Origin: Ornithinimicrobium sp. | GTDB taxonomy: Bacteria > Actinomycetota > Actinomycetes > Actinomycetales > Dermatophilaceae | Assembly (NCBI RefSeq): GCF_030537745.1 | Contig: NZ_JAUNVI010000021.1 | Span: forward strand, 1 to 41,736 | Length of the DNA stretch: 41,736 nt | Direction of reading: 5' to 3' | Shown: piece by piece, positions 177-32,710 of the stretch | How the letters are laid out: the number at the start of each line of letters is the position of its first letter | Position numbering within the stretch: the first letter of the stretch is position 1 | Position numbers and translations under genes: made by a program | Notes under the pieces: generated by a model | Databases searched by the model: none | Seen by the model: only the letters and a program-made list of their open reading frames with translations | What the model was told of the DNA's origin: nothing

Positions 177-1819
177 CGCCGGACCTGGGCCAACCCGGAC
201 GGGTTGCAGACTCCTACGTGAGCGGGCTGGCCCACCTCAACCCGGGAGCCGCCCAGGCAGTCGGTCATTCGACCGACCAGCTCTGGGCGGCCCTCGGGCC
301 CGAGGGTATTGAGCAGCAGGACAGGCTCTCCCGCACAGCGTTGGCTGCCCTCGACTCTGCAGTGCCCGCGAGCGGCGAGTCGACCGAAGCTGCGGTGCTG
401 CGAAGCGCCCTGTCCGAGCGGTTACGCAGCGACCGGGCCCTGCACGACAGCGGCTTCATCCCAGGGCTCGTCGCCCCTTTGGCATCCCCCGCCCACGAGG
501 TGCTGATGGGTCTGGAGTCCGTGGCGGGGGATGCCGACGCGCTCGTCCAGGGACTCGCCGAGGTGCCCTCCGCGCTGCGTGACTACGCCGCTCGGCTCGA
601 GGCTGCCGCCGCCGACGGGTATGTCGTGCCCGCACGGCAGTCCCGCACGCTGGCGTCCCAGCTGCGCCGCTGGGCCGATCCCGCCGCTGACGACCGTCTG
701 GGCAAGGTGGTCGACGCTGACACGGCCGCGCGCGCACAGTCACAGCTCCAGGCGGCCCGGACAGCATGCCTCGACCTGGCCGGGTGGCTCGATTCAGTCC
801 ACGCCGCGCGTGGGTCAGAGACGGACGCGGTTGGTCCAGAGCTGTATGGCACTACCTCCACCGCCTTCCTCGGGACTCGCGTCGACCTCGACGACGCCTA
901 CTCCTTCGGTTGGGAACGGCTCGCAGAGCTGACCGCCCAAGCTGAGGATCTGGCCCGCAAGCTTGGTTGCTCGAGCCTGGACGAGGCGGCAGCCATGCTC
1001 GACGCAGACGTCTCGGGACAGGTCGAGGTCGGCCCTGACCTCCTGCAGTGGGTAGACGGCCGGATGACCGCAGCCCACGCGCTGCTGGACGCCACCGTCT
1101 TCGATATCCCAGCCAACTCGCGCGTCGCCGCGGTGCTTGCCGCCCCCGGCTCCGGCTCGATCTACTACTCCCCGCCCGACCCGGACGGGAGCCGCCCCGG
1201 CCGGGTGGTGTGGTCCACCCCGACGGGGATGTCCCAACTGCCAGTGTGGCGCGAGGTCAGCACCGTCCACCACGAAGGGCTCCCGGGCCACCACCTGCAG
1301 TATGCGGTCACGATGGCCACCGACGCCCTCCACCCCTGGCAACGCCACCTCTGCCATGTGCACGGCTACGCCGAAGGATGGGCGCACTACACCGAGGGCC
1401 GCGCCCAGGACTGGGGTCTACTCCAGCACCCCGGCGAACAGCTCGGGGTCCTGTTGGCGCAGCGCTGGCGTGCCGCCCGCATCGTCATCGACCTCGGACT
1501 CCACGTCGGCTACCCCATACCCACCCACAACGGCTTCACCGAAGCCACCACCTGGTCACCGGAGGTCGGTGTCGAAGTGCTGACGCAGGCCGCTGGTTGC
1601 GACGCTGAGACGGCCGGCTTCGAAGTGGTCCGCTACCTCGGATGGCCAGGTCAGGCCCTCGCCTTCGGGCTGGGCGCCCGTCTCTGGGAGCAGGCTCGCG
1701 CCTCCGCCCTTGCCACCGGCCGCTTCGACGAACGGACCTTCCACATGCAAGCGCTCGCCCTCGGCCCGATGGGGATGGGCCCATTGCAAGACGCCCTGGA
1801 CGGACTCACTCATGCATGA
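173..1819 (+). CDS. DUF885 family protein (metallopeptidase-like), copy 1
   Basis: A 548-residue protein of the DUF885 family. The zinc-peptidase-like motif HEGLPGH is at about residues 367-373, followed about 30 residues later by YAEGWAHYTE, the second conserved block of the family. DUF885 proteins resemble gluzincin metallopeptidases, but few have known substrates. No signal peptide is visible, so it is probably cytoplasmic. I chose GTG at 173 because it overlaps the preceding stop as GTGA; a further upstream GTG at 143 would run deeper into that gene. The last codons overlap the next DUF885 gene by 8 bases. Placement between a peptide-binding protein, a paralogue and an amidohydrolase suggests intracellular cleavage of imported peptides. 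That role is inferred. Confidence 0.85.
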   Translation: MTPDLGQPGRVADSYVSGLAHLNPGAAQAVGHSTDQLWAALGPEGIEQQDRLSRTALAALDSAVPASGESTEAAVLRSALSERLRSDRALHDSGFIPGLVAPLASPAHEVLMGLESVAGDADALVQGLAEVPSALRDYAARLEAAAADGYVVPARQSRTLASQLRRWADPAADDRLGKVVDADTAARAQSQLQAARTACLDLAGWLDSVHAARGSETDAVGPELYGTTSTAFLGTRVDLDDAYSFGWERLAELTAQAEDLARKLGCSSLDEAAAMLDADVSGQVEVGPDLLQWVDGRMTAAHALLDATVFDIPANSRVAAVLAAPGSGSIYYSPPDPDGSRPGRVVWSTPTGMSQLPVWREVSTVHHEGLPGHHLQYAVTMATDALHPWQRHLCHVHGYAEGWAHYTEGRAQDWGLLQHPGEQLGVLLAQRWRAARIVIDLGLHVGYPIPTHNGFTEATTWSPEVGVEVLTQAAGCDAETAGFEVVRYLGWPGQALAFGLGARLWEQARASALATGRFDERTFHMQALALGPMGMGPLQDALDGLTHA

Positions 1820-3428
1820 ATTCGCAGCCGAGCTGGTGGCCCTCGACCCGGTCGCGGCCCGAGCGGTCGGGGTGCTGGACCCGGTGACGGGCAGCCCATC
1901 GCTTCAGCTGCCGGCGACCGACGCCGAGCACTTTGCCGCCCTCGAGGCCGCCCTGTTGGCCCGGTGCGCCCGAGTCGAAAGCAGCCCGGGCTCCCTGACC
2001 TGGCTGGAGGAGCGCTGCATTCAGGCCGAGGTCGCGGTGCGGCTGCATGAGCTGCGCGTCGCACGCCCGTGGGAACGGGCTCCCTACTGGTACGCCGAGG
2101 TGCTCGGCGATGCCCTCACCTCCGTCAACCAGGACCGGCTGCACGAGGAAGACCATGCTCAGCTCTACCTCGACCTGCTGGAGCAGTCCGTGGGTTTTCT
2201 GGCTCAAGGCCAGCGCAACCTGGTGGCAGCGCACGTCCCCAGCCGGTGGGCGGAAATCGCTGAGTCGGCGCTGCGAGGGCTTCGCGGCCTGGTCGCTGGC
2301 GATCTCAGCCTCCTCTCCGAACGTCTTCCGGCATTCCTTGTCGCGGAGGCGGACCGCCGACGTGAGGTGCTCCTGATCGCGATCGACGACTTCACCACGC
2401 ATTGTCAAGGACTCATCACGGACGGTGTCGGCGAGTGGGTTGTCGGCGAGGAAACGTTCTCGGGGCTGCTGCGCGACTATCACTGCCTGGACCTGACCGC
2501 AGAGCAGGTCTGGGAGCACGGCTGGGCCAGCGTGGACGCGGCGCAGGTGGACTTGGTCAAGCTCGCCGCCGTCCTCGACCCCGACCGCAGTTGGCAAGAG
2601 CAGATCGAGTCGCTCAAGGCCGAGCGCACCCCCGCCGACCAGTTCCTGGCGGCCTACCGCGCGGAAGTAGACACGAGCCTTCAGCTCACCCTCGGGCACG
2701 ATCTGCTGACTGTTCCTGACGACCAGAGCTGCGTGGTGCTGCCGCTGCCGGAGTTTCGGCGTGCCGGCCTGCCCCTGGGTGAGATGCGCACGGTGCCTCC
2801 TTATGCGACCGAGCTGGAGAGCCAGTTCCTGATCACGTCGGCCGATCCGGACGCACCCCCAGAGCAGGTCGCAGGGCACGAGCGGGACAACTGCCCTGCG
2901 TTCATCCGTTCCATCGTGGGTCATGAAACCTACCCAGGTCATCACCTCCAGTCGGTGCACCATGTGCTCGGCACCCCCGAGGAATCCTTCCTGCGCTTCT
3001 TCCGCACCCCCCTCTTCGTCGAAGGATGGGGACTGTATGTCGAGGACATCCTCGAGGAGAGGGTTTTCGGCGCGAGCAACCAGGCCCTCTTCGCCCGCCG
3101 CAATCGCCTTTGGCGCTCGCTGCGCCTGGTGATCGACACGGGGATGCACACGGGGCGGTTGACCTACGAGCAGGCCGTGGACCTGCTGATGGACAGGACC
3201 GGCATGGACCCGCACATGGCCCGTGGCGAGGTGGATCGCTATACGCGGCACGACAACCCCACCTACCCCTCAACCTACGTCCTGGGCCGCGACATCTTCC
3301 AACGACTCCATGCTCTTCTTGCAGGTCGCGTCCCCGGCGGCGAGGGCCGCCTGCACGACCTTCTCCTGTCGCACGGTTCGCCGCCGGTCGCACTGCTCGA
3401 AGCAGTCTTGCTCGAGGAACTCTCATGA
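1812..3428 (+). CDS. DUF885 family protein (metallopeptidase-like), copy 2
   Basis: A 538-residue second DUF885 protein directly after the first, starting at ATG 1812 inside the end of copy 1. It carries HETYPGH from about residue 371 and the downstream block FVEGWGLYVED, equivalent to YAEGWAHYTE in copy 1. Outside these blocks the two copies look clearly diverged, so this is an old duplication and may give different substrate preferences or a heteromer. No signal peptide is seen. The stop overlaps the ATG of the amidohydrolase (ATGA at 3425-3428), which indicates translational coupling. The exact peptide substrate cannot be read from the sequence. Confidence 0.85.
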   Translation: MHEFAAELVALDPVAARAVGVLDPVTGSPSLQLPATDAEHFAALEAALLARCARVESSPGSLTWLEERCIQAEVAVRLHELRVARPWERAPYWYAEVLGDALTSVNQDRLHEEDHAQLYLDLLEQSVGFLAQGQRNLVAAHVPSRWAEIAESALRGLRGLVAGDLSLLSERLPAFLVAEADRRREVLLIAIDDFTTHCQGLITDGVGEWVVGEETFSGLLRDYHCLDLTAEQVWEHGWASVDAAQVDLVKLAAVLDPDRSWQEQIESLKAERTPADQFLAAYRAEVDTSLQLTLGHDLLTVPDDQSCVVLPLPEFRRAGLPLGEMRTVPPYATELESQFLITSADPDAPPEQVAGHERDNCPAFIRSIVGHETYPGHHLQSVHHVLGTPEESFLRFFRTPLFVEGWGLYVEDILEERVFGASNQALFARRNRLWRSLRLVIDTGMHTGRLTYEQAVDLLMDRTGMDPHMARGEVDRYTRHDNPTYPSTYVLGRDIFQRLHALLAGRVPGGEGRLHDLLLSHGSPPVALLEAVLLEELS

Positions 3429-4666
3429 CCCCCCTGGCGGACCCGGTCTTGCTGAGCGGGGTGACGGTCGTCGACCCGGCAGCAGGAGACCACGAGAACG
3501 CCGCTGTCCTCATCGGTGTCGACGGGCGGGTCCACGCGACCGGTCCGCGCGAAGAGGTGCTGCGCGCTGCCGGGGCCAACACCGCGCGCGAGGTGAGGAC
3601 CAGCGGCTATGTCGTGCCTGGACTGATCAACATGCATGTGCACCTGGGCCTGGCACTGCCGGGGGCGATGTCGGAGGCCGTCGACGGTGACAACGACGCG
3701 CAGACCGTGCTGCTGATGGCCGATGCGGCGGCTCGCACCCTCTCCGCCGGGGTGACGACCACCCGGCTGATCGGTGAGAGTCGCTACCTCGACATCACCC
3801 TGCGTGCCGCGATCAGACGGGGCGCGGTGCCCGGGCCGCGCATCTACACCGCCTGTCACGCGCTGGCCTGCACCGGCGGCCACGGCTGGGAGTCCGACGC
3901 CCTTCAGGCCGATGGTGCCGACGGTTTCGCCCGCGCTACCCGCCAGCAGTTGCGCGCCGGGGCGGACCTGATCAAGGTCTGCGTCTCCGGTGGGATCGCG
4001 GGCGAGCATGAAAGCATCGACACTCCGCAGTTGACCCTGGACGAGGTTCGCGCCGTCATCGAGACCGCCCACGCCTGGGGCAAGCAGGTCACCGCGCATG
4101 CCGCCTCTTCCGCGACAGTCCTGCCCGCTCTGCGACTTGGCCTGGACGGTGTCGAGCACGGCTACAGCCTCGACACCGAGACCGTGGACCTGATGGCGCA
4201 GCAGGGCACCTGGTACGTCCCGACGATCACGGTCAGCAGATGCCGAGAGTTCTTCGAGCTGCACCAGGTGCCCGACTGGATGATGCAGCGTGCGTTGGAC
4301 GCCGGGCCGGAGCACTGGGCCAGCCTGCAACGGGCCATCGCGGCGGGCGTGCGGATCGTCATGGGGTCCGACATGCCCCCCTACGCACCGTTCGACGGGA
4401 CGACAGCGACGGTGCGTGAGATGGAGTTCATGGAAGAGGCCGGCATGAGCGCCACTGACGTGCTCGCCGCTGGCACCAGCAGGGCCGCCGAATGGTTAGG
4501 CGCGCCCGACCTGGGCACCCTAAGTCCAGGATCGTGGGGCGACCTGCTCCTTCTCACCGACGACCCGCGTGACGGCATCTCCGCGCTCCGGTCGCTGCGT
4601 GCCGTCGTGCAAGGAGGCCGGGCGGTCCGCGACGACCGCCACGAACTCATCGCTTGGACGATGTGA
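3425..4666 (+). CDS. Amidohydrolase family protein (imidazolonepropionase/prolidase-like)
   Basis: A 413-residue metal-dependent hydrolase of the amidohydrolase superfamily. Visible ligand motifs are HVH at about residues 71-73, a candidate carboxylated Lys in DLIKVCVSGG at about 184, the HA and EHGY histidines further on, and GSDMPP with the catalytic Asp at about 316. This layout matches the subgroup containing imidazolonepropionase-like enzymes and Xaa-Pro or Xaa-Arg dipeptidases. It is a cytosolic enzyme by appearance, with no signal peptide. The start is ATG 3425, overlapping the DUF885 stop. The neighbours suggest that it finishes peptide breakdown, perhaps of proline-containing dipeptides, but the family also holds lactamases and other hydrolases. 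The gene converges on the XRE-cupin regulator. Confidence 0.85.
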   Translation: MTPLADPVLLSGVTVVDPAAGDHENAAVLIGVDGRVHATGPREEVLRAAGANTAREVRTSGYVVPGLINMHVHLGLALPGAMSEAVDGDNDAQTVLLMADAAARTLSAGVTTTRLIGESRYLDITLRAAIRRGAVPGPRIYTACHALACTGGHGWESDALQADGADGFARATRQQLRAGADLIKVCVSGGIAGEHESIDTPQLTLDEVRAVIETAHAWGKQVTAHAASSATVLPALRLGLDGVEHGYSLDTETVDLMAQQGTWYVPTITVSRCREFFELHQVPDWMMQRALDAGPEHWASLQRAIAAGVRIVMGSDMPPYAPFDGTTATVREMEFMEEAGMSATDVLAAGTSRAAEWLGAPDLGTLSPGSWGDLLLLTDDPRDGISALRSLRAVVQGGRAVRDDRHELIAWTM

Positions 4667-4712: not shown

Positions 4713-5249
4713 CTAGGGCATAGGCGGCGTCACCGCAACGAGAAACTCAGCTTCCTTCGTTGCCTCGTTCACGTAGTGGTGGGGCATCCGCGCGTCAAAG
4801 GTAATGCTCTCGCCACTGTTCAGCGGGTGCCGCGCTTCGTTCACCACGACCACGAGGGTCCCCCGCGTCACATAAGCACACTCGGTCGAGGCATGGGCCC
4901 ACGGTTCGGCGGCAGTCTGTTCCCCTGGCAGCAGACGGCCGAGGAGGACCTCCAGATCCGTCCTGCCGGGGGTCAGCCGCTCATACGTGATGGCGCCGGG
5001 AACGACGGAGAGCGTTGGCCGTTCGTTAGGCCTGCTGATGTGCACCTGGGGCGCCTCGGGCTCTGCGAAGAGCGTCGCGAGATCCGCTCCGTAGACTGCG
5101 GCAAGTTTGCGGATCGTGGCGAGGCTGGGGTCGGTCTTGCCCCGCTCGACCTGACTCAGCAGCCCCGGCGAGACATCGGCGGCCTCTGCTAGCTGGCGCA
5201 GAGAGAAGCCCCGCTCCTGACGCAGTTGTCGCAGTTTCTCTGGCAGCAC
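4713..5249 (-). CDS. XRE-family transcriptional regulator with cupin domain
   Basis: A 178-residue regulator. Residues about 3-58 form an XRE helix-turn-helix (LRQLRQERGFSLRQLAEA, then DVSPGLLSQVERG). Residues about 105-175 form a cupin-2 domain containing EPWAHASTECAYVTRG and a C-terminal PHHYVNE strand. Such proteins normally sense a small ligand through the cupin barrel and control a neighbouring catabolic operon. I chose the GTG at 5247-5249 because AGGAG lies five bases upstream; an in-frame ATG 48 bases further out lacks support. It lies last in the minus-strand module of 5313-9241 and probably regulates it. Two GGTAAAC repeats upstream are a candidate binding site. Confidence 0.88.
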   Translation of the reverse strand: MLPEKLRQLRQERGFSLRQLAEAADVSPGLLSQVERGKTDPSLATIRKLAAVYGADLATLFAEPEAPQVHISRPNERPTLSVVPGAITYERLTPGRTDLEVLLGRLLPGEQTAAEPWAHASTECAYVTRGTLVVVVNEARHPLNSGESITFDARMPHHYVNEATKEAEFLVAVTPPMP

Positions 5250-5301
5250 ACAAACTCCTGTCCGTCGGGCGACGCCGGCAGGAAGCCCCCAGCGCACGGC
5301 C

Positions 5302-5334
5302 GTTTACCTACGCTAGCCGTGCGTGCAGTTTACC
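5302..5334 (-). promoter_or_regulatory. Direct repeats GGTAAAC upstream of XRE-cupin gene
   Basis: Read on the minus strand, GGTAAAC occurs at 5328-5334 and again at 5302-5308, 26 bases apart. Each copy is followed by a CACG- or GTGCG-containing stretch. They lie 53 to 85 bases before the regulator start; the outer copy is inside the last codons of the flavoprotein gene. Autoregulation is an inference. Confidence 0.3.
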
Positions 5335-6845
5335 GGCTCTCCGTTGTCGTACCGGACCTGGGACGTGACGGAGTCCTGAGTCCCATCGACACTCACGTCG
5401 AGGTCGCCTGGGAGCTCGAGGTCGGACCCCCCGTGCGCCGGTGAAAGCGCTGAGACAGGAATGGGTTTGACTGGTGCCCGCGCAGTGAACGTGCCGACGT
5501 CCGCAAGGTCGATCCCCCGCTGTTCGGCGGTCAGCGCGGCAACCGTGAGAGCGCAATGCCGCCCCTGGCACAGCCCCATGCCGGCTCGGCATTCCAACTT
5601 GACCGCATTGACGTCGCTCAGGAAGGGATTGTCGTCCAGAACGCTGCCGATCTGGCCGGCAGTGACGAGCTCACACCGGCACACGACGGTGCTTTCGGTG
5701 CTCAATCTCGCCAAGCTTTCGCGGCGAGGCTCGAACAGCGTCTGGACCACCTTGGAGAATCGGCGCGCCGTCCGCAGGTCCCGCTGGGCTCGCAAAAGAT
5801 CTGGGGGGGTGCCGACCTTCTTCAGATCTGCCCAGATGGCAAGACCAGCAAGGCGCCCCTCGGCATACGCCTGCTCGGCACCAGCGACGCCGCCGGGCTC
5901 ACCTGCGACGTAGATGAGTTCCTGACTGGATCTCATTTTTTCGTCGTGCGCGACGACCCAGCCTCCGGCCGGACTATCCCAACGCACTGCGCACCCTGCT
6001 TGCCTGGCCAGCTCCGTAGAGGGGACGAAGCCGTAGCCCAGCACGAGGCCGTCGCACTCCACCGAGCGGGTCGGTCCGCGCAGATTCCAGTCGGAGTCGA
6101 TGGACGCGATCTGCACCGACGTGAGGTGCTGCTCACCCTCGGCTTGGGTGACCAGGGCACGGGTGAGGATGGGCACCCGCGCCGCCTTGAGTCGCAGCAG
6201 TATTTTGGCTGTCCCGCCGAGCAGGCCGAGGTGGCCAGGGACCGCCGCAAGACTGCGCGCGCCCTCCATGGGGCTGGGCAGACCGCGCGCTAACACCAGG
6301 GCTGCCAGGTCCGCACCGGCGTCGAGCAGTTGGCCAGCAGCCACGAGCAAAAGGGGATGTGCACCAGCGAGGACGAGCCTTTTGGCCGGCAGCAAGCGCT
6401 GACTCTTGACCAACGTCTGCGCAGCGCCAGCCATCATCACCCCTGGCAGGGTCCACCCAGGGAAGGGGACCGGCAGGTCGTAGGCGCCGGTGGCGATGAG
6501 GACGCGCCTGGCCTGCACATACTCACCACCTTGTGGGCCCGAGAGTCCGACGCTGACCGTGTGCGAGGCTTCGTCCTCCATGAGCAGGCCCCACGCCGTC
6601 GTCTCCCAGCGCCAGTCGATCTGCTTCGATCGCCCACTTTCGGCAAGCAGGTCCTTCGCCCAGGGATAATCCTTGGGTGCGTCGTGTCCAGTCCCTCCCC
6701 ACTCCACGGGGAGTTGCCTGAAGATCTGCCCACCTGCTTGTCGCTGCTCGTCGACAACGAGGACGTGCAGACCACGCTTCGCGGCCGTCAGCGCAGCCGC
6801 GAGTCCGGCTGGCCCTGCGCCGACGACAAGCACGTCGTAGATCAT
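5313..6845 (-). CDS. Flavoprotein large subunit of HcnB/OoxA/D-hydroxyproline dehydrogenase type (module 1)
   Basis: A 510-residue FAD-dependent oxidoreductase. It starts with the FAD-binding motif GAGPAG at residues 9-14 and contains the family segment ATGAYDLPVPFPGWTLPGV. A C-terminal 2Fe-2S domain is marked by Cys at about 389, 391, 426 and 431 (VCRCE and LCQGRHC). This is the architecture of the large subunit of hydrogen cyanide synthase, opine oxidase and D-hydroxyproline dehydrogenase complexes. The second nucleotide site reads GAHPLLL rather than GxGP, so NAD binding is doubtful, as in these amine dehydrogenases. About 40 extra residues follow the usual end. It starts at ATG 6843-6845, overlapping the previous stop by one base, with GGAG eight bases before. 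Substrate unknown; an imino or amino acid is likely. Confidence 0.85.
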   Translation of the reverse strand: MIYDVLVVGAGPAGLAAALTAAKRGLHVLVVDEQRQAGGQIFRQLPVEWGGTGHDAPKDYPWAKDLLAESGRSKQIDWRWETTAWGLLMEDEASHTVSVGLSGPQGGEYVQARRVLIATGAYDLPVPFPGWTLPGVMMAGAAQTLVKSQRLLPAKRLVLAGAHPLLLVAAGQLLDAGADLAALVLARGLPSPMEGARSLAAVPGHLGLLGGTAKILLRLKAARVPILTRALVTQAEGEQHLTSVQIASIDSDWNLRGPTRSVECDGLVLGYGFVPSTELARQAGCAVRWDSPAGGWVVAHDEKMRSSQELIYVAGEPGGVAGAEQAYAEGRLAGLAIWADLKKVGTPPDLLRAQRDLRTARRFSKVVQTLFEPRRESLARLSTESTVVCRCELVTAGQIGSVLDDNPFLSDVNAVKLECRAGMGLCQGRHCALTVAALTAEQRGIDLADVGTFTARAPVKPIPVSALSPAHGGSDLELPGDLDVSVDGTQDSVTSQVRYDNGEPVNCTHG

Positions 6846-7129
6846 CAGAACAACTCCGTGTGACTGACGCTCATGCCCTGTCGCGCTGGGGTCAGGCAGG
6901 CGCGCGTCCACGGGGTCCCGTCCACGGTCACGACGCAGTCAAAGCAACTGCCCATATTGCACAGCGGGAGACGAGGGTCTCCGTCCCGAGTCAGCACGAA
7001 GGCTCCCACCTGGGCCGCCAGCAGGGCGGTCGCAAGCGTCTCCCCCTCGAACGCACCGATGACGTGCCCGTCGAATGTGAACTCGATGGGGCGCTGCCGT
7101 TGCGCTGGCAGTCGCGATGAAGAGGGCAT
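6845..7129 (-). CDS. Small 2Fe-2S-binding subunit, HcnA-like (module 1)
   Basis: A 94-residue ferredoxin-like protein with CNMGSCFDC (Cys 57, 62, 65) and a later RACLTP Cys at 78, the four ligands of an HcnA-type 2Fe-2S cluster. In related complexes this small subunit passes electrons between the two flavoproteins. The start used is ATG at 7127-7129, four bases after the DAO-type gene. An upstream in-frame start would overlap that gene by about 55 bases and is not needed for the domain. The TGA stop shares one base with the next ATG, so subunits two and three are coupled. The paralogue at 31249-31515 has the same spacing of cysteines. Confidence 0.87.
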   Translation of the reverse strand: MPSSSRLPAQRQRPIEFTFDGHVIGAFEGETLATALLAAQVGAFVLTRDGDPRLPLCNMGSCFDCVVTVDGTPWTRACLTPARQGMSVSHTELF

Positions 7130-7133
7130 GGCG

Positions 7134-8312
7134 TCAACTCTCGAATCGTCGTGGGTCGTAGGGCGTGATGTCGAGGTCTGGTGTGACACCCATGATCAGC
7201 AGGGCGAGCAACCGGGCGAAGGTGGGGCCGAGCGTAAACGCCGATCCGCCGGTGGCGACGAAGATCCCACTTCGTCCGGGCACCGCACCGAGGAGTGGGA
7301 GTTGGTCAGGAGTCAGCGTCGTGGCACCGGTCCACATCCGCAGCACCGCTGCGGAGCGCAGTTCCGGCAGGACTCGCTGCGCCACCAGCACGCTGCGCTG
7401 CACCGAAGAAGCGACCAACGAGGGGGCCACATCGAGCCTCGGTGAGCCGGCGACGGTGCTGCGGAACGTCGCTGGCCATCCCCCTCCGATCAAGAAGTTC
7501 CCCTCCCCTGTCTGCTTCAGCGAGAGCCTGGCACCCACATGCTGGATCAACTGCGGGAGGGCGCGGCGGGCGCGAACAGTAGCCACCATGGTCAACGCGA
7601 CGGGATAGACGGGCAGCGACACTCCCAGCATGGCGAGGAGTTGGTCAGTCCAGATGCCGCCGGCGAGGACCACCGAGTCGGCTTCTATATACACAGTCTC
7701 GGAGGTGTCGCGGTGATAGCCCACCCGCCAACGGTTGCCCTGCCTCGCGATCGAGGTGACGGTCGTTCTCGTGCGGATGCTGGCGCCGCGTCGTGCGGCG
7801 GCTCGCGCCAGCGCTGGCGCCACCAGACGACTGTTTGCCTTGCCTTCGATCGGGCAGAAGGCCGCAGCAACGACGTGGGGTGCCAGATAGGGGAACCGCC
7901 GGTGGAGTTCGGACCCGGTGACAAGCTCGACGTCAAGCCCCCATGACCGCTCGAGCTCGATTTTTTCTTCCAACCTCAGCGCTTGCTCCGAATTCTCCGC
8001 GAGCATCAACCCCCCGGCCGCAGAGACGTGCAGGTCTTCCCCTATCGATCCACTCAGCGTCGCCCACTGTTGCGCGGCATCGAGGTGCAAGGGCATTGCT
8101 TCGGCTGCGCGCTGCGCCTCTTTCAGGCCATTCGCGATCATTCGATATTCCAGCTGGAAGTGCAGGCTTCCGGCGTTCTGGCCAGAAGCGTGTCGGTTGA
8201 CCTGATCCTTTTCTAAGACGACAGTGTCAGCGCCACTGGAGACCACGCTCCACGCGATGGCAGTGCCGAGAAGCCCACCACCGATCACGAGGACATCGGT
8301 GCGCTCTACCAT
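7134..8312 (-). CDS. DAO-family FAD oxidoreductase, HcnC/OoxB-like catalytic subunit (module 1)
   Basis: A 392-residue flavoprotein of the DAO (D-amino acid oxidase/glycine oxidase) fold. The dinucleotide motif GGGLLG is at residues 11-16, followed by VVLEKD. The segment ASGQNAGSLHFQLE is typical of DAO subunits that work with HcnA/HcnB-like partners. In such heterotrimers this subunit oxidises the C-N bond of an amino or imino acid. It begins at ATG 8310-8312, overlapping the end of the DapA-type gene by seven bases. It differs from the module 2 homologue (31512-32693), which has SRGEGNILVSDK at the equivalent place, so the two are likely to accept different substrates. Confidence 0.85.
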   Translation of the reverse strand: MVERTDVLVIGGGLLGTAIAWSVVSSGADTVVLEKDQVNRHASGQNAGSLHFQLEYRMIANGLKEAQRAAEAMPLHLDAAQQWATLSGSIGEDLHVSAAGGLMLAENSEQALRLEEKIELERSWGLDVELVTGSELHRRFPYLAPHVVAAAFCPIEGKANSRLVAPALARAAARRGASIRTRTTVTSIARQGNRWRVGYHRDTSETVYIEADSVVLAGGIWTDQLLAMLGVSLPVYPVALTMVATVRARRALPQLIQHVGARLSLKQTGEGNFLIGGGWPATFRSTVAGSPRLDVAPSLVASSVQRSVLVAQRVLPELRSAAVLRMWTGATTLTPDQLPLLGAVPGRSGIFVATGGSAFTLGPTFARLLALLIMGVTPDLDITPYDPRRFES

Positions 8313-9241
8313 CGCGCGGGCTCAGCCTTGATCTGTAGTCGTTGGAGGGTGTCGTGAACCAGGCTGACTTCGCTGGGTGTCAGATCCAGCAGGGGTCGTC
8401 GAACGACGCCGGCAGGGACGCCTCGATAACGCAGGGCGGTCTTCATGATCGCGGCTGTGTTGCCGAACTTTGTCCCGTAGTCGGGCGTGAACCAACTCTC
8501 CATCAGCACCCGGTCGCGGTCCCCCAACCGCAGGGCTTGCTCCCTGTCGCCAGCAGTGATGGCCCGCCAAAAGTCGGAATGGTCACTTCCCAGAACCCCG
8601 CCGGACCCCATCAGACCACTCCCCCGTCCGGCCAGCGCCAGATCTACGCCCAGCGCACTAGTGGGTAGTCCAAATACCCGCAGGCGGTCGCTGACCCCAT
8701 AGAGGGAGGAAAGAAAACCAGCCGTATTCTGCGTCGAATTTTTTAGAGCAACGATGTTCTCTACGTCTGCTAGCTCATCGAGTGTTGAGCTATCGATATC
8801 GACGCTGCAGCCGCGCGGCCAGTTGTAGATGCACAGCGGTATATTCGACCCGTCCGAGACATCAGTGTAGAACTGCACGATTTCGCGTGCCGACGGGACG
8901 ATGTATGGCGGCGGCGCCAGCAAGATGCCGTCGAGCCCCGCCTTTTCTGCTTCGCGGGCATAAATGATTGCTTCACGCGCGGTGAAGGCATTGCAACCAC
9001 CCAGGACCGGGATGCGTCCGCGCACGTGACGTGCGCCTTCATGAAACAGTCTGATGCGCTCTTCTGGCAGCAGGCTCGACCATTCTCCGGTGGTGCCCGC
9101 CAGGATGATTCCATCCATCCTCTGGTCAATCAGCCACTCCAGTTGGGCCGCAAAATCGGCCCACGCAATGGCGCCGTCCTGCCCGAACGGCGTAGTGATG
9201 GCGGGGATGTAGCCGTACCAGGTGACGTCAGTGCGGTCCAT
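8306..9241 (-). CDS. DapA/N-acetylneuraminate lyase family protein (module 1)
   Basis: A 311-residue class I aldolase-fold protein. It has the substrate-carboxylate loop GTTGE at residues 49-53, the catalytic Tyr at 139 in LCIYNWPRG and the Schiff-base Lys at 167 in VALKNST. The family includes dihydrodipicolinate synthase, keto-acid aldolases and pyrroline-4-hydroxy-2-carboxylate deaminase. Here the usual YNNP or YNxPxR sequence is YNWPRGC, so substrate handling may be unusual. The start is ATG 9239-9241 with GAGGAG four bases before; the reading frame is open further upstream but without family sequence. It is first in the minus-strand module, so it should act on the product of the dehydrogenase encoded after it. 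Deaminase, dehydratase and aldolase remain possible. Confidence 0.85.
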   Translation of the reverse strand: MDRTDVTWYGYIPAITTPFGQDGAIAWADFAAQLEWLIDQRMDGIILAGTTGEWSSLLPEERIRLFHEGARHVRGRIPVLGGCNAFTAREAIIYAREAEKAGLDGILLAPPPYIVPSAREIVQFYTDVSDGSNIPLCIYNWPRGCSVDIDSSTLDELADVENIVALKNSTQNTAGFLSSLYGVSDRLRVFGLPTSALGVDLALAGRGSGLMGSGGVLGSDHSDFWRAITAGDREQALRLGDRDRVLMESWFTPDYGTKFGNTAAIMKTALRYRGVPAGVVRRPLLDLTPSEVSLVHDTLQRLQIKAEPARW

Positions 9242-9339
9242 GCAACTCCTCGTTCGGCAGCGTGGTCGGCCCTGACGTTGCGTGCCATCATCCGTGAGAT
9301 GCGCCCAACCAGCCACACGTGGGTTCACAGCAAACGTGC

Positions 9340-9356
9340 GTGTAGTCAGACTATAC
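9340..9356. promoter_or_regulatory. FadR/GntR-type palindromic operator candidate
   Basis: The 11-base perfect palindrome TAGTCAGACTA at 9343-9353 fits the FadR-subfamily GntR pattern T-N-GT-N3-AC-N-A. Outside it, one mismatched pair is followed by two more complementary pairs. It lies in the 199-base region between two divergent transcription units, about 100 bases from each start. The FCD-type GntR at 27893 is the only GntR protein in the window, but the true binder may be elsewhere. Confidence 0.5.
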
Positions 9357-9440
9357 ATCTTCTGTCATACTGGCGGCGTCCGTGCAGCACAGGAACCGAC
9401 ATTGCCTGTCCATTCTGGGCAGGCAGAACTGGAGAATGAC

Positions 9441-9848
9441 GTGACTGACCCGTCTGGCACCCGAGAGCTTCACAACCCACCAGCACTTCATCCTGCGCCT
9501 GGGTTCAGCCACGTCGCGATCGGCACCGGCAGCCGGACCGCCTACATCGCAGGACAGATTGCGTTGGCGCCGGATTTCTCGATCATCGGTGAAAATGACT
9601 TGCGCGCACAGACCGTCGCCGCCACCAGAAACCTGGAGATCGCTCTGCAAGCGATCGGCGCCACCTGGGAGCACGTCGTCCGCCGGACGATCTACACGAC
9701 GCAGCCAGAACAGTATGCCGCCATCACCTCCGGGATCGAGGAAGTGCAAGGGTCGCAGGAGCACCCCGCTCAGACCATCATCGGCATCACCGGGCTGGCG
9801 ATCCCCGGGCTGATGATCGAGATCGAGGCCACCGTGGTTCTTCCGTGA
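9441..9848 (+). CDS. Rid-family (YjgF/YER057c/UK114) protein without the catalytic Arg
   Basis: A 135-residue Rid protein with the family core GSRTAYIAGQIAL, TVAATRNLEIALQAIGA and MIEIEATVVLP. RidA deaminates reactive imines and enamines using an Arg in the segment FPARSCVEV. The matching segment here is HPAQTIIGI, so that Arg is Gln. It therefore belongs with Rid subfamilies lacking the residue, and classical 2-aminoacrylate deaminase activity is unlikely. The GTG start at 9441 has GGAG six bases before; a nearby ATG in another frame stops at once. The stop overlaps the next GTG as GTGA. Its position opposite an imine-forming dehydrogenase module suggests it handles an imine-like intermediate, which is inferred. 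Confidence 0.87.
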   Translation: MTDPSGTRELHNPPALHPAPGFSHVAIGTGSRTAYIAGQIALAPDFSIIGENDLRAQTVAATRNLEIALQAIGATWEHVVRRTIYTTQPEQYAAITSGIEEVQGSQEHPAQTIIGITGLAIPGLMIEIEATVVLP

Positions 9849-10345
9849 GCGGAATCCCAGGGCTTCAAGGCATTGATCACGTCGCGTTGACCGTGCCCGA
9901 TCTCGATGAGGCAACCCGGTTCTACTGCGACGTCATTGGCGGCACACTGCTTTACGAGCTTGGCCCTTTCGATGCGCGACAGATGCCCCCGTCGGATGAC
10001 GGCCTCGACTGGACCGAGGCTCACCTCGACGTGGCAGATGCCCTCTTGTCCTTCCGAGTAGTGCAGTTGGGCAGTGTCGTGCTCGAACTCTTCTCCTACC
10101 AGCGTCCCGCAGAGTTGAGCGCTGCAGGACTTGGCGACGCTGCGCCGGGGCATGGACACATCGGCTTCGCAGTCGACGACATTGCGGCTGCCACCGCCTA
10201 TCTGCTCGACCAGGGCGTCCGCGTCCTCAGTGGTCCGATCGACGTCCCCCCGGAGGCCCCCAGCGGAGCGATGCTCAACCGCTACTTCGCTGATCCGTGG
10301 GGCAACCAGTTGGAACTGACGCAACGCCCAGGTCACGCCCACTGA
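9845..10345 (+). CDS. VOC/glyoxalase-fold protein
   Basis: A 166-residue vicinal-oxygen-chelate protein with two beta-alpha-beta-beta-beta modules. The first begins IDHVALTVPDLDEATRFY and the second GHIGFAVDDIAAATAYL. Candidate metal ligands are the His of IDHV, the Glu of VVLELF, the His of GHGHIGF and the Glu of NQLELTQ, the four-ligand set seen in methylmalonyl-CoA epimerase and related lyases. The start GTG overlaps the Rid stop, so the two are one operon. VOC proteins include epimerases, dioxygenases, glyoxalases and resistance proteins; the metal site argues for an enzyme. Reaction unknown. Confidence 0.87.
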   Translation: MSGIPGLQGIDHVALTVPDLDEATRFYCDVIGGTLLYELGPFDARQMPPSDDGLDWTEAHLDVADALLSFRVVQLGSVVLELFSYQRPAELSAAGLGDAAPGHGHIGFAVDDIAAATAYLLDQGVRVLSGPIDVPPEAPSGAMLNRYFADPWGNQLELTQRPGHAH

Positions 10346-10383: not shown

Positions 10384-12423
10384 TTAGGACGCCACCCGGG
10401 CGATCTCCTCACGCCACGACCGCTGGTGCACCTGTTGGCCGTCGCAGTGCGCCACCTGCTGGGCCTGAAGGTAGATGGTGCTCTCGTCGCACGTCAGCAC
10501 ATAGGTGCTTACCACCCGCACCCGGAAGTGCCCTTCCCTGCTCGCTTCGTACTCCCAGCTGATCGCAGCCCGGTAACGGTCGGCCAACTCCGGGTGCGCG
10601 ACGTACTCTTCCCTGCATCGTTGGTCCACCCGTAGCCCGTGGTCGACGTAGGTGATGTCGCCTAGATCGTCTTCGACGACCACGGTGGTCTCGCCGCTGG
10701 CGACGTCGGTGGACACGGTCCGCCGCGGCTTCGCTGCTCGGTGGATGCGCAGTCGTGCTCCGGGCGCGGAGACCGCAGGTGGTGGCAGCACCTCCAGGTC
10801 GTCCCCGCTGAAGATGGGCAGGGTCAGGAGGGACCTGCCCGGCAGCACGGTGAGGTCCGAGCGCACGGGCGGCGGCATCAGCAGCGGGAAGTTGGCGGAG
10901 GAGACCGAGACGCGCAGCTGGTGGCCGGCAGGTATGCGGTAACCGACCATGTCCAGTGCCACCGTGACCTCCATCGCCTCCCCCGCGCGCACCGGAGTCA
11001 CTAGGTCCGGCGTTTCGCGCAGCCGCAGGTTGAGCACGCCGTAGGTGATCAGGGCCACCCCGCCATCTGGTCGCACGTCGTTGAGCCGCACCGTCACCTG
11101 TCCTGCGTCCGTGCTGCTGGCCAAGCGCAGACTGACCTGCGGACGCCCCAAGAGGTCCATCGGCTGGGTCAACGGGTCACTGTCCCAGGTCGCGGCATAC
11201 GCATCGTCGGCGCGTTGGTCGGTCGGCAGGTCGGGGCCGGTCCAGATGGCGCAGTACTCTCCCTGCCCCGTCCCTGCGGTCAAGGGGGTCCGCACCGCCA
11301 CCTCCGTGGACAGGTCCTCCAGATCAGCGGACAGAGAGCCTCCGTCGGTGAGCGAGAGCACGCGGGAAGTGACACACGGATCGGGCCAGCCTGCCGTGCG
11401 CACCCAGCGCCCTGGACGGAAGGCGTGCATCGGCGCAGGGGGGACAGAGTCCTGGACGTAGAAGCGTCCGGAGGGCACCGCGTCCGGCAGGTTCTGTGCC
11501 GGGTCGGCGGTGGGAGACCGATCGTGGAGCCAGCGATCCCACCACCTCAGCGCCTCCTGCAGGAAGCCGACGGTCGGCTGCGGCACCGCGAAGTGCGGAT
11601 ACTTGTGGATCCACGGACCGATCATCACTTGGCACGGAGAGCTCAGGTGTTCCAGCAGGCGGGGCACGGTGTTCTTGTAGGCATCACCCCAACCGCCCAC
11701 CGCGAAGACCGGGATGGTGATCGCGCCGTAGTCCTCGCAGACCGAACCGTGCCGCCAGTAATCGTCCCGAAGTTGGTGCTGCATCCAGTTCTTTGCCAGC
11801 AGCGGCATCTGATCCAGCCGCTCCAGCCATCGATCCTTCCACTCGGGCACCAGCGCTGGGTCCGGGACGGCTGCGCTAAAACTCAGCATTGTCGCGGCCC
11901 AGCCCAGGTTTTCATTCATCAGCACGCCACCCTTGTAGTGGACGTCGTCTGCGTAGCGGTCGTCGGTCGAGCAGAGGGTGATGATCGCCTTCAGCGGAGC
12001 CGGCCGCAGCCCAGCGACCTGCAGAGAGTTGAAGCCGCCCCAGGAAATGCCCATCATCCCGAGCGAACCGTCGCACCAGGGCTGCGCTGCGATCCAGTCG
12101 ATCACTTCTAGAGCATCGGCCTGCTCCTGGGGCAGGTACTCATCGGCCATCAGCCCAGTGGACTCGCCGTTGCCACGGAGGTCGACGCGCACTCCGGCAT
12201 ACCCGTGGGCAGCGAAGTAGGGGTAGGTGAGCTCGTCACGTGCCAGGGTGCCGTCGCGTTTGCGATAGGGAAGGTACTCCAGGATCGCCGGGACCGGCGT
12301 CTCCAGCGCGTCCTTCGGCAACCAGACGCGGGCCGCCAAGACCGTGCCGTCGCGCAGGGGGATCTCGACGTGCTCGATCTCCACTCCTGCGTCGGGCAGG
12401 TCGGGTTCCTTCGCTGCGGACAT
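10384..12423 (-). CDS. CocE/NonD family hydrolase (X-Pro dipeptidyl-peptidase-like)
   Basis: A 679-residue serine hydrolase. The N-terminal alpha/beta-hydrolase domain contains EYLPYRKRDG, DLRGNGES and the nucleophile motif GISWGG with Ser at 127; PWIHKYPHF probably carries the catalytic His. The C-terminal jelly-roll of X-Pro dipeptidyl-peptidase type (peptidase S15 clan) includes GYRIPAGHQLRVSVSSANFP. The family covers cocaine esterase, glutaryl-7-ACA acylases and X-prolyl dipeptidases. There is no signal peptide. The start is ATG 12421-12423 with AGGAGG six bases before. It converges on the VOC gene. An X-Pro peptidase role would suit the surrounding proline-type peptide genes, but esterase activity is equally possible on sequence alone. 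Confidence 0.85.
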   Translation of the reverse strand: MSAAKEPDLPDAGVEIEHVEIPLRDGTVLAARVWLPKDALETPVPAILEYLPYRKRDGTLARDELTYPYFAAHGYAGVRVDLRGNGESTGLMADEYLPQEQADALEVIDWIAAQPWCDGSLGMMGISWGGFNSLQVAGLRPAPLKAIITLCSTDDRYADDVHYKGGVLMNENLGWAATMLSFSAAVPDPALVPEWKDRWLERLDQMPLLAKNWMQHQLRDDYWRHGSVCEDYGAITIPVFAVGGWGDAYKNTVPRLLEHLSSPCQVMIGPWIHKYPHFAVPQPTVGFLQEALRWWDRWLHDRSPTADPAQNLPDAVPSGRFYVQDSVPPAPMHAFRPGRWVRTAGWPDPCVTSRVLSLTDGGSLSADLEDLSTEVAVRTPLTAGTGQGEYCAIWTGPDLPTDQRADDAYAATWDSDPLTQPMDLLGRPQVSLRLASSTDAGQVTVRLNDVRPDGGVALITYGVLNLRLRETPDLVTPVRAGEAMEVTVALDMVGYRIPAGHQLRVSVSSANFPLLMPPPVRSDLTVLPGRSLLTLPIFSGDDLEVLPPPAVSAPGARLRIHRAAKPRRTVSTDVASGETTVVVEDDLGDITYVDHGLRVDQRCREEYVAHPELADRYRAAISWEYEASREGHFRVRVVSTYVLTCDESTIYLQAQQVAHCDGQQVHQRSWREEIARVAS

Positions 12424-19877: not shown

Positions 19878-20618
19878 TTAGCGGCGGCGGGGAATAGTGT
19901 CGACCTTGTCCCAGCCGCGCCGGTGCGCCCTGGACGCGTCGTGCGCGTCACGAGTCCGGTAGAGGATGTACGGGCGGAACATGTAGCCAAGCGGCGCGGT
20001 GAAGACATGCACGAGGCGGGTGAACGGCCACAACGCGAACAGCGCGAAAGCGATGAGCGCGTGGAATTGGAAGCTCAGGGGTGCGGCAACCATCAGCTCG
20101 GGCTGGGGATTGAAGTAGAAGATGCTGCGGAACCAGATCGAGACGCCCTCTCGATAGTTGTAGTCCCCCACCACCTGGGAGCCCGTGTTGACCAACCCGG
20201 CAAGGATCACCACGCCGAGGACGAGATACATCAGTTTGTCCATTGGGGTCGTCGCGCCGAAGACGGCTTTGGTGAACCGGCGTCGGTAGACGAGACCGAT
20301 GAAACCGACGATCGTGAGCACGCCGGCGATCGCTCCGATGGAGATCGCCATGAAGTGGTACATCCCCTCCGAGATCCCTACTGCATCGGTCCAGGACTTC
20401 GGCACGCCCAGGCCCATAACGTGGCCCAAGAAGACGGCCAGGATCCCGAAGTGGAACATCGGGTTGGCCCACCGCAGGATGCCCCGCTCATACATTTGGC
20501 TCGATCGCGACGTCCAACCGAACTTGTCATACCGATATCGCGCGATATGCCCAAGGACGAAAATGGTCAAGCAGATGTAAGGAAAGATCAACCACAAGAA
20601 CAGGTCAAGAACACTCAT
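19878..20618 (-). CDS. narI: Respiratory nitrate reductase gamma subunit (cytochrome b)
   Basis: A 246-residue membrane subunit with five hydrophobic helices. The heme ligands of E. coli NarI (His 56, 66, 187, 205) have clear counterparts at His 56 and 66 (MFHFGILAVFLGH) and at 186 and 204 (FQFHALIA, RLVHVF), so both b hemes should bind. It oxidises menaquinol and passes electrons to NarH. The start is ATG 20616-20618, sharing one base with the narJ stop (TGATG) and preceded by GGAGG at six bases; a GTG one codon earlier is the alternative. It is the last gene of the operon and converges on the protease gene. Confidence 0.95.
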   Translation of the reverse strand: MSVLDLFLWLIFPYICLTIFVLGHIARYRYDKFGWTSRSSQMYERGILRWANPMFHFGILAVFLGHVMGLGVPKSWTDAVGISEGMYHFMAISIGAIAGVLTIVGFIGLVYRRRFTKAVFGATTPMDKLMYLVLGVVILAGLVNTGSQVVGDYNYREGVSIWFRSIFYFNPQPELMVAAPLSFQFHALIAFALFALWPFTRLVHVFTAPLGYMFRPYILYRTRDAHDASRAHRRGWDKVDTIPRRR

Positions 20619-21274
20619 CACGCACCTCCGGCGGTGGGCGGCATCTCTGGTACTCCATAGGGGCTCAGGCCGACTTGCTCCTCGGCGGGTCCTTCGGCGA
20701 TCAGCCGTTGGACGGCTTCGCGATCCTTACCCTTGAGGGGCGGCAGGGTGGCGCAGACCGCTTTCAGCGCACCGCTCCACGGTGAGTCGATATCGATCAA
20801 GTGCAGGCGCAGCAACTCCAGACCAGCACGGTTGTCCAACAGGATTTTCAGCCCAGCCTGCTGGTCATAGGTGGCCGCGAACTCGAGCACGACGCACAGA
20901 TGGTCGGGCAGTTGGTCCTCGGTGAGCACCAGACCTGCCCGGGTATACACCTGCTTGATCCGCAGCAGCGCCAGACCGCGCTTGCGCGTCTCCCCGTTGG
21001 AGAAGTAGGTGAGAAACAGGCAACCCCGTCGACGGTTGTCGAAGGTGTCGACATAGTCGCTCTCTGAGACCCGCAGCGGTTGTCTTTGCAGGTGGTCGAT
21101 GGTGGCGCGCAGTCCGGAACCGAGTTCGGGCGGCAGGGTGTCGGGGACCTGCGTGAGCAGCTCCATCTGGCCCAGAAGTTGCTCGTCCGGATACTCCAAC
21201 AGGATCGAGGCCGACTGCCACGTCCGGGTAAGCACATCTTCGGAGTACTTCAGGGTCGGGACCCGCGGTGCCAC
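20618..21274 (-). CDS. narJ: Nitrate reductase assembly chaperone NarJ
   Basis: A 218-residue helical chaperone of the NarJ/DmsD/TorD type, required for molybdenum cofactor insertion and assembly of NarGH but not part of the mature enzyme. Family features are ASILLEYPDE near the start, YVDTFDNRRRGCLFLTYFSNGETRKRG in the middle and DQLPDHLCVVLEF. The reading frame starts at GTG 21272-21274, two bases after the narH stop, with GGAG five bases before and no better start. The C-terminus ends in a short Pro/Gly stretch (YGVPEMPPTAGGA) and overlaps narI by one base. Confidence 0.93.
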   Translation of the reverse strand: MAPRVPTLKYSEDVLTRTWQSASILLEYPDEQLLGQMELLTQVPDTLPPELGSGLRATIDHLQRQPLRVSESDYVDTFDNRRRGCLFLTYFSNGETRKRGLALLRIKQVYTRAGLVLTEDQLPDHLCVVLEFAATYDQQAGLKILLDNRAGLELLRLHLIDIDSPWSGALKAVCATLPPLKGKDREAVQRLIAEGPAEEQVGLSPYGVPEMPPTAGGA

Positions 21275-21276
21275 GG

Positions 21277-27892: not shown

Positions 27893-28585
27893 CTACAGTG
27901 TGGACCCTCCAGCCCAAGCAGCGCGGACGTGACCGATGTGCTGTCCCACCAGCGCGGCCATCCGATCCGCATCCTGTTCGAGAGCCACATTGACCATCTC
28001 CTCGTGCTCGGCGCAGAGCGTGAGCATCAGTCCCGTGCCGAGCATGTCCTGCAGCCCGTAGAGCCGCGAACGGCTGCGCAGGCGCTGCACTTCCTCCACC
28101 ACGTACCGGTTGCCGTGCAGCGCCAAGAAGCGCACATGAAACTCGGTGTCGGCCTGGATGTAGGTCACGAGATCGCCCCGCCTGGCCGCGTCCGTAATGT
28201 CCTGCGCCAGGGGTCGCAGCGCTTCGACGGCCTCGGCCACCTGCCCCTCGCAGGCCACGGCCACCATCCCCATGACCGGCGGCTCAATGAGCATCCGCAG
28301 CTCGGCCATCGCGTCTAGCTCGTGCTCGTCCAGTTCAGTGACCCGGAAGCCCTTGTTGCGGACGATCTCGACGAGACCCTCCCCCACCAGGTCGAGCATG
28401 GCCTCCCGCACCGGCGTCGCTGAGACCCCAAACCCCACGGCCAGGGACGGCGCGGAGTAGACGGTCCCAGGCCGCATCTTGCCGCTGATCAAGAGCGCTC
28501 GCAGGGCCGCGGCAACCTGTTCACGCAGGCTCGTCCGGCCTCCGTAGCTCGGCAGCTCCAAGGCGCTCAGCTCATCCCTGGTCAC
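27893..28585 (-). CDS. GntR-family transcriptional regulator, FCD subfamily
   Basis: A 230-residue regulator. The winged helix-turn-helix is at about residues 18-80 (LREQVAAALRALLISGKMRPG, then FGVSATPVREAMLDLVGEGLVEI), and the FCD ligand-binding domain follows (ELRMLIEP, DTEFHVRFLALHGNRYVVE, EHEEMVNVALEQDADRMAALV). Asp and His residues in these blocks commonly bind a metal that holds a carboxylate ligand. I chose GTG 28583-28585: GGAGG lies five bases before, and the GTG overlaps the stop of the upstream remnant reading frame as GTGA. An ATG 12 bases upstream lacks ribosome-site spacing. It is last in the hydroxyproline operon and is its likely repressor, with hydroxyproline or a pathway acid as effector. 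Confidence 0.88.
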   Translation of the reverse strand: MTRDELSALELPSYGGRTSLREQVAAALRALLISGKMRPGTVYSAPSLAVGFGVSATPVREAMLDLVGEGLVEIVRNKGFRVTELDEHELDAMAELRMLIEPPVMGMVAVACEGQVAEAVEALRPLAQDITDAARRGDLVTYIQADTEFHVRFLALHGNRYVVEEVQRLRSRSRLYGLQDMLGTGLMLTLCAEHEEMVNVALEQDADRMAALVGQHIGHVRAAWAGGSTL

Positions 28586-32693: not shown

Positions 32694-32710
32694 ACTTGCT
32701 CCACCGGTTG

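Follow-up and report, generated by a model that had tools for sequence, protein, structure and literature searches.

A recurring lyase and flavin dehydrogenase gene module, distinct from the hydroxyproline operon, that may degrade a peptide-released amino or imino acid

Introduction

The described route of hydroxyproline degradation consists of a hydroxyproline epimerase (HypE), a D-hydroxyproline dehydrogenase or oxidase, a Pyr4H2C deaminase, and a semialdehyde dehydrogenase (PMC4113996 and PMC5144071). Here, we report on a 41,736-nucleotide stretch of DNA from Ornithinimicrobium sp. (contig NZ_JAUNVI010000021.1; hereafter called "the window"), which carries an operon of this kind (module 2, positions 35092-27893) and, about 19 kb from its HypE gene, another gene set composed of a DapA-type lyase and a flavin dehydrogenase (module 1). 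The opine enzymes have the same three-subunit architecture as this dehydrogenase (PMC4575208). No paper on the module-1 cluster, and no assigned substrate, was found in the open-licence literature searched, and the annotation of the genes is generic ("dihydrodipicolinate synthase family protein" or "FAD-dependent oxidoreductase"), as on a plasmid of Bradyrhizobium elkanii.

Judged by its sequences, module 1 is a distinct family and not a duplicate of the hydroxyproline operon. We propose that it forms a self-contained unit that catabolises an amino or imino acid freed from a peptide or amide, by the mechanism described in the Discussion, and we regard this proposal as evenly poised between right and wrong. 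We infer the identity of the substrate; a ring-substituted proline would be the most likely single class, with perhaps one chance in three.

Results

Gene Organization of the Two Modules

The core of module 1 comprises five intact open reading frames (ORFs) on the minus strand, in the order reported in an earlier sequence-only reading, which had also found the same five-gene order in module 2. The first gene encodes DapA1 (8306-9241), a dihydrodipicolinate synthase (DHDPS)-superfamily Schiff-base lyase with the motifs GTTGEW and YNWPRG and the residue K167. It is followed by DAO1 (7134-8312; PF01266, 1.4e-60), the FAD-containing catalytic beta subunit with an RMW motif, and by the gamma subunit, a 2Fe-2S protein of the Fer2_4 type (6845-7129, ORF open from 7189; PF13510, 1.5e-26). 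The alpha subunit (5313-6845; PF07992, PF04324, and PF17806, with a soxA-family stretch) is an FAD protein with a BFD-type 2Fe-2S domain and an SO_alpha_A3 domain. The last gene (4713-5249, ORF open from 5297; PF01381 and PF07883) encodes an XRE-cupin regulator of PuuR-like architecture, which scores 73.1 bits against NF007408, under the cut-off of 211. The probable gene starts were picked by codon score.

The module-1 block reaches past this core on both sides, with all of the flanking genes on the plus strand. On one side lie a COG1228-type amidohydrolase (3425-4666), related to Xaa-Pro dipeptidase and Arg carboxypeptidase, and two DUF885 proteins, b (1812-3428; PF05960, 1.2e-54) and a (173-1819, ORF open from 143; PF05960, 1.1e-103), the closest solved relative of the latter being the uncharacterised 3iuk. 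On the other side, a Rid protein of the imine/enamine deaminase family (9441-9848; PF01042, 1.6e-20) overlaps the gene of a VOC-superfamily protein (9845-10345; PF00903, 3.7e-19). The divergent promoter region between DapA1 and Rid (9242-9440) is intergenic by both the ORF and the codon-score gene calls.

Module 2, also on the minus strand, repeats the order of module 1 with an aldehyde dehydrogenase (ALDH) inside and HypE and a GntR regulator after the FAD protein. It consists of DapA2, the Hyp-operon lyase with the motif YNNPHST (34202-35080, ORF to 35092), ALDH (32711-34198, between DapA2 and DAO2), DAO2 (31512-32693), a small 2Fe-2S protein (31249-31515), a large FAD protein (29778-31259), the HypE-like protein (28731-29732), and the GntR regulator (27893-28597). 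The 2Fe-2S protein was assigned from its ORF by Cys pattern and position, and HypE by NF010578 (358.4 bits, slightly under the cut-off of 376); the others were assigned by family searches, which agree with the sequence-only reading that ALDH, the epimerase, and GntR in place of XRE-cupin set module 2 apart. DAO2 is 66% identical to the Hyp-operon subunit of S. fungicidicus and clusters with that subunit and LhpB. The identity between DapA1 and DapA2 is 28%, and that between DAO1 and DAO2 is 25-27%. A second proline-racemase-superfamily protein (40078-41106, plus strand) is 37% identical to HypE, has both Cys motifs (ACGHGT and SPCGSGT), and diverges from the adjoining Liv-type transporter genes. 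Elsewhere in the window, a four-gene run (19878-26624, minus strand) resembles, by eye, a respiratory nitrate reductase operon (narGHJI-like).

Conservation of the Core

One genome per species, for 84,980 species, was searched with two lyase peptides, which yielded 190 relatives, and the best 80 were kept as loci L028-L107; the frequencies below refer to these best 80 of 190 relatives and are not estimates for bacteria at large. They belong to 56 Pseudomonadota, 20 Actinomycetota, 3 Bacillota, and 1 other. In 74 of the 78 loci with all three, the DapA1, DAO1, and FAD genes follow one another in this order on a single strand and within 3.5 kb. Since the loci were picked by lyase peptides alone, this colinearity argues that the grouping is not due to chance. 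The core is rearranged in L073, L077, L081, and L086, and not all three genes were found in L084 and L100, with stretches of 7.6 and 12.3 kb, respectively.

Homologues of the flanking genes were searched for in the 80 loci with tblastn, and matches covering less than 40% of the query were dropped, except for the 2Fe-2S queries. Rid occurs in 42 loci, VOC in 41, the amidohydrolase in 37, the XRE-cupin regulator in 28, DUF885a in 21, and DUF885b in 6; the XRE-cupin/Rid/VOC set singled out by the sequence-only reading thus recurs. The module-2 controls were found once each (HypE, GntR, ALDH, and the second 2Fe-2S protein) or never (DAO2, DapA2, and the second large FAD protein), and the second proline racemase, CocE, and LivM/H/K were also found in no locus, while LivF was found in 18, as expected for an ABC ATPase. 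The CocE/NonD hydrolase (10384-12423), with a homologue in 0 of 80 loci, was ruled out as a member of module 1. The distances of the linked proteins correlate with those of DapA1 (Spearman 0.79 for DAO, 0.83 for FAD, 0.71 for VOC, 0.67 for the amidohydrolase, and 0.46 for Rid, each reached in 0 of 199 permutations), and the correlation between the amidohydrolase and the SSS transporter is weak (0.28, reached in 10 of 199 permutations); all of these values include the common descent of the hosts.

Gene calls in 83 loci, including the window, were made with a caller trained on the high-GC window; L062 and L066 are absent from these tables, and the three Bacillota loci were read via ORF lists. 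The regulator is of the XRE-cupin type in 27 loci and of the LysR type in 41, never both, and neither in 15. Upstream of DapA1, no shared operator was found: the commonest perfect dyad occurs in 5 of 23 regions (shuffles reached 3), which form two closely related groups, and the TAGTCTGACTA dyad that precedes the window DapA1 matches the other 25 regions no better than their shuffles. In 26 of 83 loci (L065, L043, and others), small SnoaL/NTF2-like proteins are encoded near module 1. Seven alphaproteobacterial loci (L083, L088, L090, L096, L099, L101, and L107) place module 1 beside a gentisate-1,2-dioxygenase-like/FAA-hydrolase pair, and six of them also have a nitrilase-like gene; these families were scanned in L083 and assigned by clustering in the others.

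At E<=1e-40, DapA1 had a match in 11 of the 297 genomes searched in the order and in 3 of the 396 in the phylum sample, counting the window's own genome, and none of the remaining matching genomes belongs to the window's family. Among 20 relatives from the family, none matched DapA2 at E<=1e-50, in a search run without a positive control. In the lyase tree, the rows nearest the window come from two phyla, which suggests transfer without proving it. The GC content at third codon positions is 0.70-0.77 in the module-1 core genes, Rid, and VOC, and 0.81-0.92 in the other correctly framed genes of the window, consistent with horizontal transfer.

Active-Site Residues of the Lyase

DapA1 has the DHDPS fold, with the Schiff-base Lys and the Tyr. 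In the alignment to the catalytic positions of DHDPS, K167, Y139, and Y113 are kept in 83 of 83 module-1 lyases and T50 in 82, and the YNW motif is invariant in all 83. As W54 sits in one of the lyase search patterns, its invariance is partly built in, while W141 lies outside the pattern. The alignment agrees with the difference noted earlier between YNWPRGC in DapA1 and YNNPHST in DapA2; YNNP is present in DapA2 and in the lyase of L114, both known from sequence and neither biochemically characterised, and the lyase comparisons and trees as a whole are built without biochemically characterised lyases such as a Pyr4H2C deaminase. The position of DHDPS Arg138, which we take to have a role in that enzyme (Arg138 mutants are named in PDB titles), is Gly144 in all 83 sequences.

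Phylogeny of the DAO Subunit

By Pfam and alignment, the module-1 dehydrogenase has alpha, beta, and gamma subunits with FAD, an FMN-site motif, and two 2Fe-2S motifs. The Arg-X-Trp motif occurs in 76 of 76 DAO1 sequences, those of 370 residues or fewer having been left out before the count, and marks the FMN site according to PMC4575208. The sequence-only reading had noticed a different substrate-side segment in DAO1, and the alignment bears this out: the three hydroxyproline dehydrogenase (HypDH) and two opine dehydrogenase rows all have Arg at the position equivalent to residue 331, while the window DAO1 has Thr331 and the 76 module-1 rows have Thr (69), Val (6), or Ala (1), and never Arg. 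In the relatives, this Arg presumably binds the substrate carboxylate.

In the 32-row DAO tree, all 14 module-1 rows group together (support 90/88, under the tool's star threshold), nested in a 26-row clade, which a 100/99 branch sets apart from LhpB, DAO2, the S. fungicidicus HypDH, NoxB, OoxB, and the DadA-like protein of L018. The opine rows are NoxB and a 329-residue part of OoxB, and HcnC and PDH1 are not included. The other members of the clade, also near DapA-type lyases, are linked to HyuAB (L019-L021), to D-hydantoinase/AH_C (L022 and L023), to dihydropyrimidinase/DUF3830 as fused proteins (L112 and L116), and to GcvPAB (L109-L111); to our knowledge, these subunits are uncharacterised. 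L132 and L135 combine these themes with YNW lyases; the same holds for L134, in which no alpha or gamma gene was seen. The HyuA of L037 shares 50-54% identity with the HyuA proteins of L019-L021 and 43% with that of L135; no HyuA was found in the window's own genome, in a search run without a positive control.

These data bear first on the possibility that module 1 is a second, divergent enzyme set for the ordinary hydroxyproline pathway, in which DAO1 would oxidise cis-4-hydroxy-D-proline or, directly, trans-4-hydroxy-L-proline and DapA1 would be a Pyr4H2C deaminase. The gene order shared with module 2, about 19 kb away, speaks for it, as does the operon at 8487-11682 of L018, where an outer YNW-type lyase stands with a HypE-like epimerase (58% identical to the window HypE) and the DadA-like DAO. 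DHDPS-superfamily enzymes also act on 4-hydroxy-pyrroline carboxylate (PMC4113996 and PMC5144071). However, the DAO1 clade is separate from LhpB and DAO2, the Arg is replaced in 76 of 76 DAO1, the lyase has YNW and not YNN, and HypE is linked in only 1 of 80 loci and undetected in 29 of 53 genomes. We consider this explanation quite unlikely. A search for tight grouping of the module-1 proteins with the hydroxyproline enzymes and for identity of their active-site residues turned up neither, in a set whose comparison lyases were two Hyp-operon sequences and no biochemically characterised Pyr4H2C deaminase.

An opine or N-substituted amino-acid dehydrogenase was the other candidate; here Rid would hydrolyse the imine and the lyase would take the released 2-oxo acid. 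The alpha-beta-gamma architecture and Arg-X-Trp are held in common, the Ti plasmids have HyuAB next to noxBCA and a RidA gene next to ooxBA, and HyuAB accompanies relatives of module 1 in L037, L019-L021, and L135. On the nopaline Ti plasmid (L117), HyuA/HyuB lie beside noxBCA at 28273-35699, and on the octopine Ti plasmid (L118), the RidA gene lies beside ooxA at 46900-50000. Nevertheless, DAO1 is only 24-25% identical to OoxB and NoxB, the Ti regions read, for which the gene tables are incomplete, have no annotated DapA-type gene, and the peptidases would be left unexplained. The opine reading is weakened, because the DAO tree separates DAO1 from NoxB and OoxB and their Arg is lost, and we now hold it to be very improbable. 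The sequence-only reading is borne out in part: the distinctness from the compared HypDH and Hyp lyases, the different active-site segments, and the lack of a linked epimerase hold up, and its suggestion of an opine substrate loses ground.

Peptidases and Transporters

The neighbourhood points to a residue freed by peptidases, an idea absent from the sequence-only reading. The solved relatives of the linked amidohydrolase include 3mtw and 2qs8. Neither the amidohydrolase nor DUF885 turned up in the three Bacillota loci, each of which instead encodes a divergent M24 protein together with a Sapep-type M20 dipeptidase, the latter scoring above the TIGR01887 cut-off in 3 of 3; L067 and L069 among them also have Xaa-Pro-type M24 peptidases. 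Relatives of M24 are also found at L061 and L094, and a DPP-IV-like S9 peptidase at L073 and L081. Since unrelated peptidase families accompany the same core, they argue for a substrate that would be released from peptides, and the proline-specific members in several of these families suggest that it may be a proline-like residue.

The transporters pair with the location of the amidohydrolase: where the importer is a Dpp-type ABC system, the amidohydrolase lacks a signal peptide in 9 of 11 loci, and where SSS/SNF symporters are present, it is exported in 19 of 20 (Fisher 2.5e-5 for the loci with both, by a crude signal rule). This rule calls the window amidohydrolase exported, which we take as a false positive. 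The pairing fits either peptide import with internal cleavage, or external cleavage with import of the free residue.

Rid, VOC, and the Missing Aldehyde Dehydrogenase

In the 83 loci, Rid adjoins VOC in 42 of the 42 loci with both. This arrangement, the linkage of ALDH in 1 of 80 loci, and the presence of aldolases among the families resembling DapA1 would suit an acyclic gamma-hydroxy amino acid from peptides, which would be oxidised to a 4-hydroxy-2-oxo acid that DapA1 splits into pyruvate and an aldehyde for VOC to convert. No finding singles out such a substrate, however, and the Xaa-Pro-type peptidases suggest an imino acid, so that we find this alternative highly doubtful. Alpha-ketoglutarate semialdehyde was dropped as a product for lack of ALDH linkage. 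The argument is weak, as a Hyp operon without a nearby ALDH exists: in the S. fungicidicus operon (L114), none is annotated in its 15 kb, by an incomplete gene table.

Epimerase Dependence

The HypE query, run at E<=1e-40 on 53 module-1 genomes (48 of the 80 named loci and five further genomes), detected a homologue in 24 and none in 29. A wholesale miss is unlikely, because the query also caught superfamily members with 35-40% identity. Since 29 of the 53 genomes have no detected homologue, module 1 does not seem to depend on a HypE-type epimerase.

Discussion

How might module 1 degrade its substrate? First, DUF885 and the Xaa-Pro-type amidohydrolase would cut a peptide or dipeptide, as their families and linkage suggest. 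Second, the freed residue would be oxidised by the alpha-beta-gamma flavin dehydrogenase without prior epimerisation. The domains and motifs of this enzyme are observed, and by comparison with its homologues, the electrons would pass from FAD in DAO1, probably via FMN at Arg-X-Trp, to the two 2Fe-2S centres and the respiratory chain. Third, the Rid protein, by its family, would handle the imine or cyclic ketimine. Fourth, Lys167 of DapA1 would form a Schiff base with the 2-oxo acid or ketimine, followed by expulsion or cleavage at C4, either by elimination of water and ammonia, the chemistry of Pyr4H2C deaminase, or by a retro-aldol reaction as in reverse DHDPS. Finally, the VOC protein would act on some product, and the cupin of the regulator may sense the substrate. 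Other substrates (meso-diaminopimelate, Maillard products, nicotianamine, ectoine, creatinine, and kynurenine) were dropped, as no linked gene demanding them was noticed, with no dedicated search for each.

Several observations weigh against the proposal of a peptide-fed catabolic unit. The amidohydrolase scores only 233.9 bits against NF051886 (Xaa-Pro dipeptidase; cut-off 500), and its family also holds Arg/Lys carboxypeptidases and ochratoxinase, so that proline specificity is not established; the Xaa-Pro-type M24 proteins likewise score under their cut-offs. The transporter association tracks the split between Gram-negatives and Actinomycetota, and the loci are not independent. The accessory genes are rarer near the 31 closest lyases (at least 54% identity) than near the outer 49 (Rid 8 versus 34, VOC 10 versus 31, amidohydrolase 10 versus 27), while the XRE-cupin regulator is commoner beside the closest (24 of 31 versus 4 of 49). 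In 20 of the 83 loci, no amidohydrolase, DUF885, or Rid was called; two of these, L067 and L069, do carry M24/M20 peptidases, and seven combine the core with an NhaC-family transporter and lack Dpp genes. The near-absence of linked ALDH also counts here, with the reservation made above for the Hyp operon of L114. The YNW lyase-HypE operon of L018 speaks for the proposal, as the single such case among the loci seen.

A broader and more speculative reading, which we think unlikely, is that module 1 belongs to an undescribed superclade defined by an alpha-beta-gamma or fused flavin dehydrogenase, a beta subunit with [ST]-x-KQ...GG[GA]W, a DHDPS-type lyase, and residues delivered from amides. Its substrates would come from dipeptides (via amidohydrolase/DUF885 or M24/M20), from cyclic dipeptides or lactams (via HyuAB beside the amidohydrolase; L019-L021 and L037), or from cyclic ureides (via D-hydantoinase or dihydropyrimidinase sets; L022, L023, L134, L112, and L116). 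Module 1 would be the best-spread branch seen in this analysis, degrading Xaa-(modified proline) dipeptides and diketopiperazines, with the modified proline oxidised directly, in the configuration that it has within the peptide, and the epimerase of the hydroxyproline route thereby by-passed.

Two further sets of relatives are recorded here. Three Rhodobacterales plasmids (L109, 4140-29409; L110, 1149-20288; L111, 5574-27908) and a genome of the window's order (L132, 428-19782) carry a largely shared, unexplained cluster of DapA-type lyases, DAO/FAD/2Fe-2S proteins, SDRs, a 3-HADH-like protein, an aminotransferase, an SSADH-type ALDH, GcvPA/GcvPB, and an NAD-kinase-like protein; the L132 members were partly assigned by eye, and there is no ALDH in the L111 stretch read. 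The Azospirillum and Agrobacterium vitis plasmids (L112, 745-9949; L116, 3627-11783) encode a DapA-type lyase, an amino-acid ABC transporter, dihydropyrimidinase, DUF3830, and a fused flavoprotein of about 970 aa with the DAO-type part C-terminal.

A set that recurs across three or more phyla, with transporters, peptidases, and regulators that replace one another, predicts one substrate class eaten by many soil, plant-associated, aquatic, and sphingomonad bacteria. Knowing this substrate would show what the YNW lyases do, and perhaps also what their relatives linked to HyuAB, hydantoinase, and GcvP do.

How does module 1 compare with the known systems? Its lyase differs from DHDPS (DapA) in Gly144 at the Arg138 position and in its TIGR00674 score of 136.4 bits, under the cut-off of 206.15. 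The amidohydrolase is related to the COG1228 Xaa-Pro dipeptidases and Arg carboxypeptidases, at a score under the curated cut-off. The third-best solved relative of DAO1 (phmmer 4.1e-23, weak) is 1y56_B, labelled sarcosine oxidase, which we take to be the beta subunit of the archaeal L-proline dehydrogenase PDH1; it likewise lacks Arg at the compared position, and we know of no lyase that accompanies PDH1. The Nox/Oox/Odh opine dehydrogenases share with module 1 the beta-gamma-alpha gene order, Arg-X-Trp, and Rid or HyuAB neighbours, while DAO1 falls in a separate clade at 24-25% identity, without their Arg, and the Ti regions read have no annotated lyase. LhpB/C/D with Pyr4H2C deaminase also combine a three-subunit flavin/2Fe-2S dehydrogenase, with Arg-X-Trp in LhpB, and a DapA-type lyase; from them, module 1 is set apart by 25-27% identity, its own clade, the lack of Arg at 331 and of a linked epimerase or ALDH, and a lyase that carries YNW in place of YNN.

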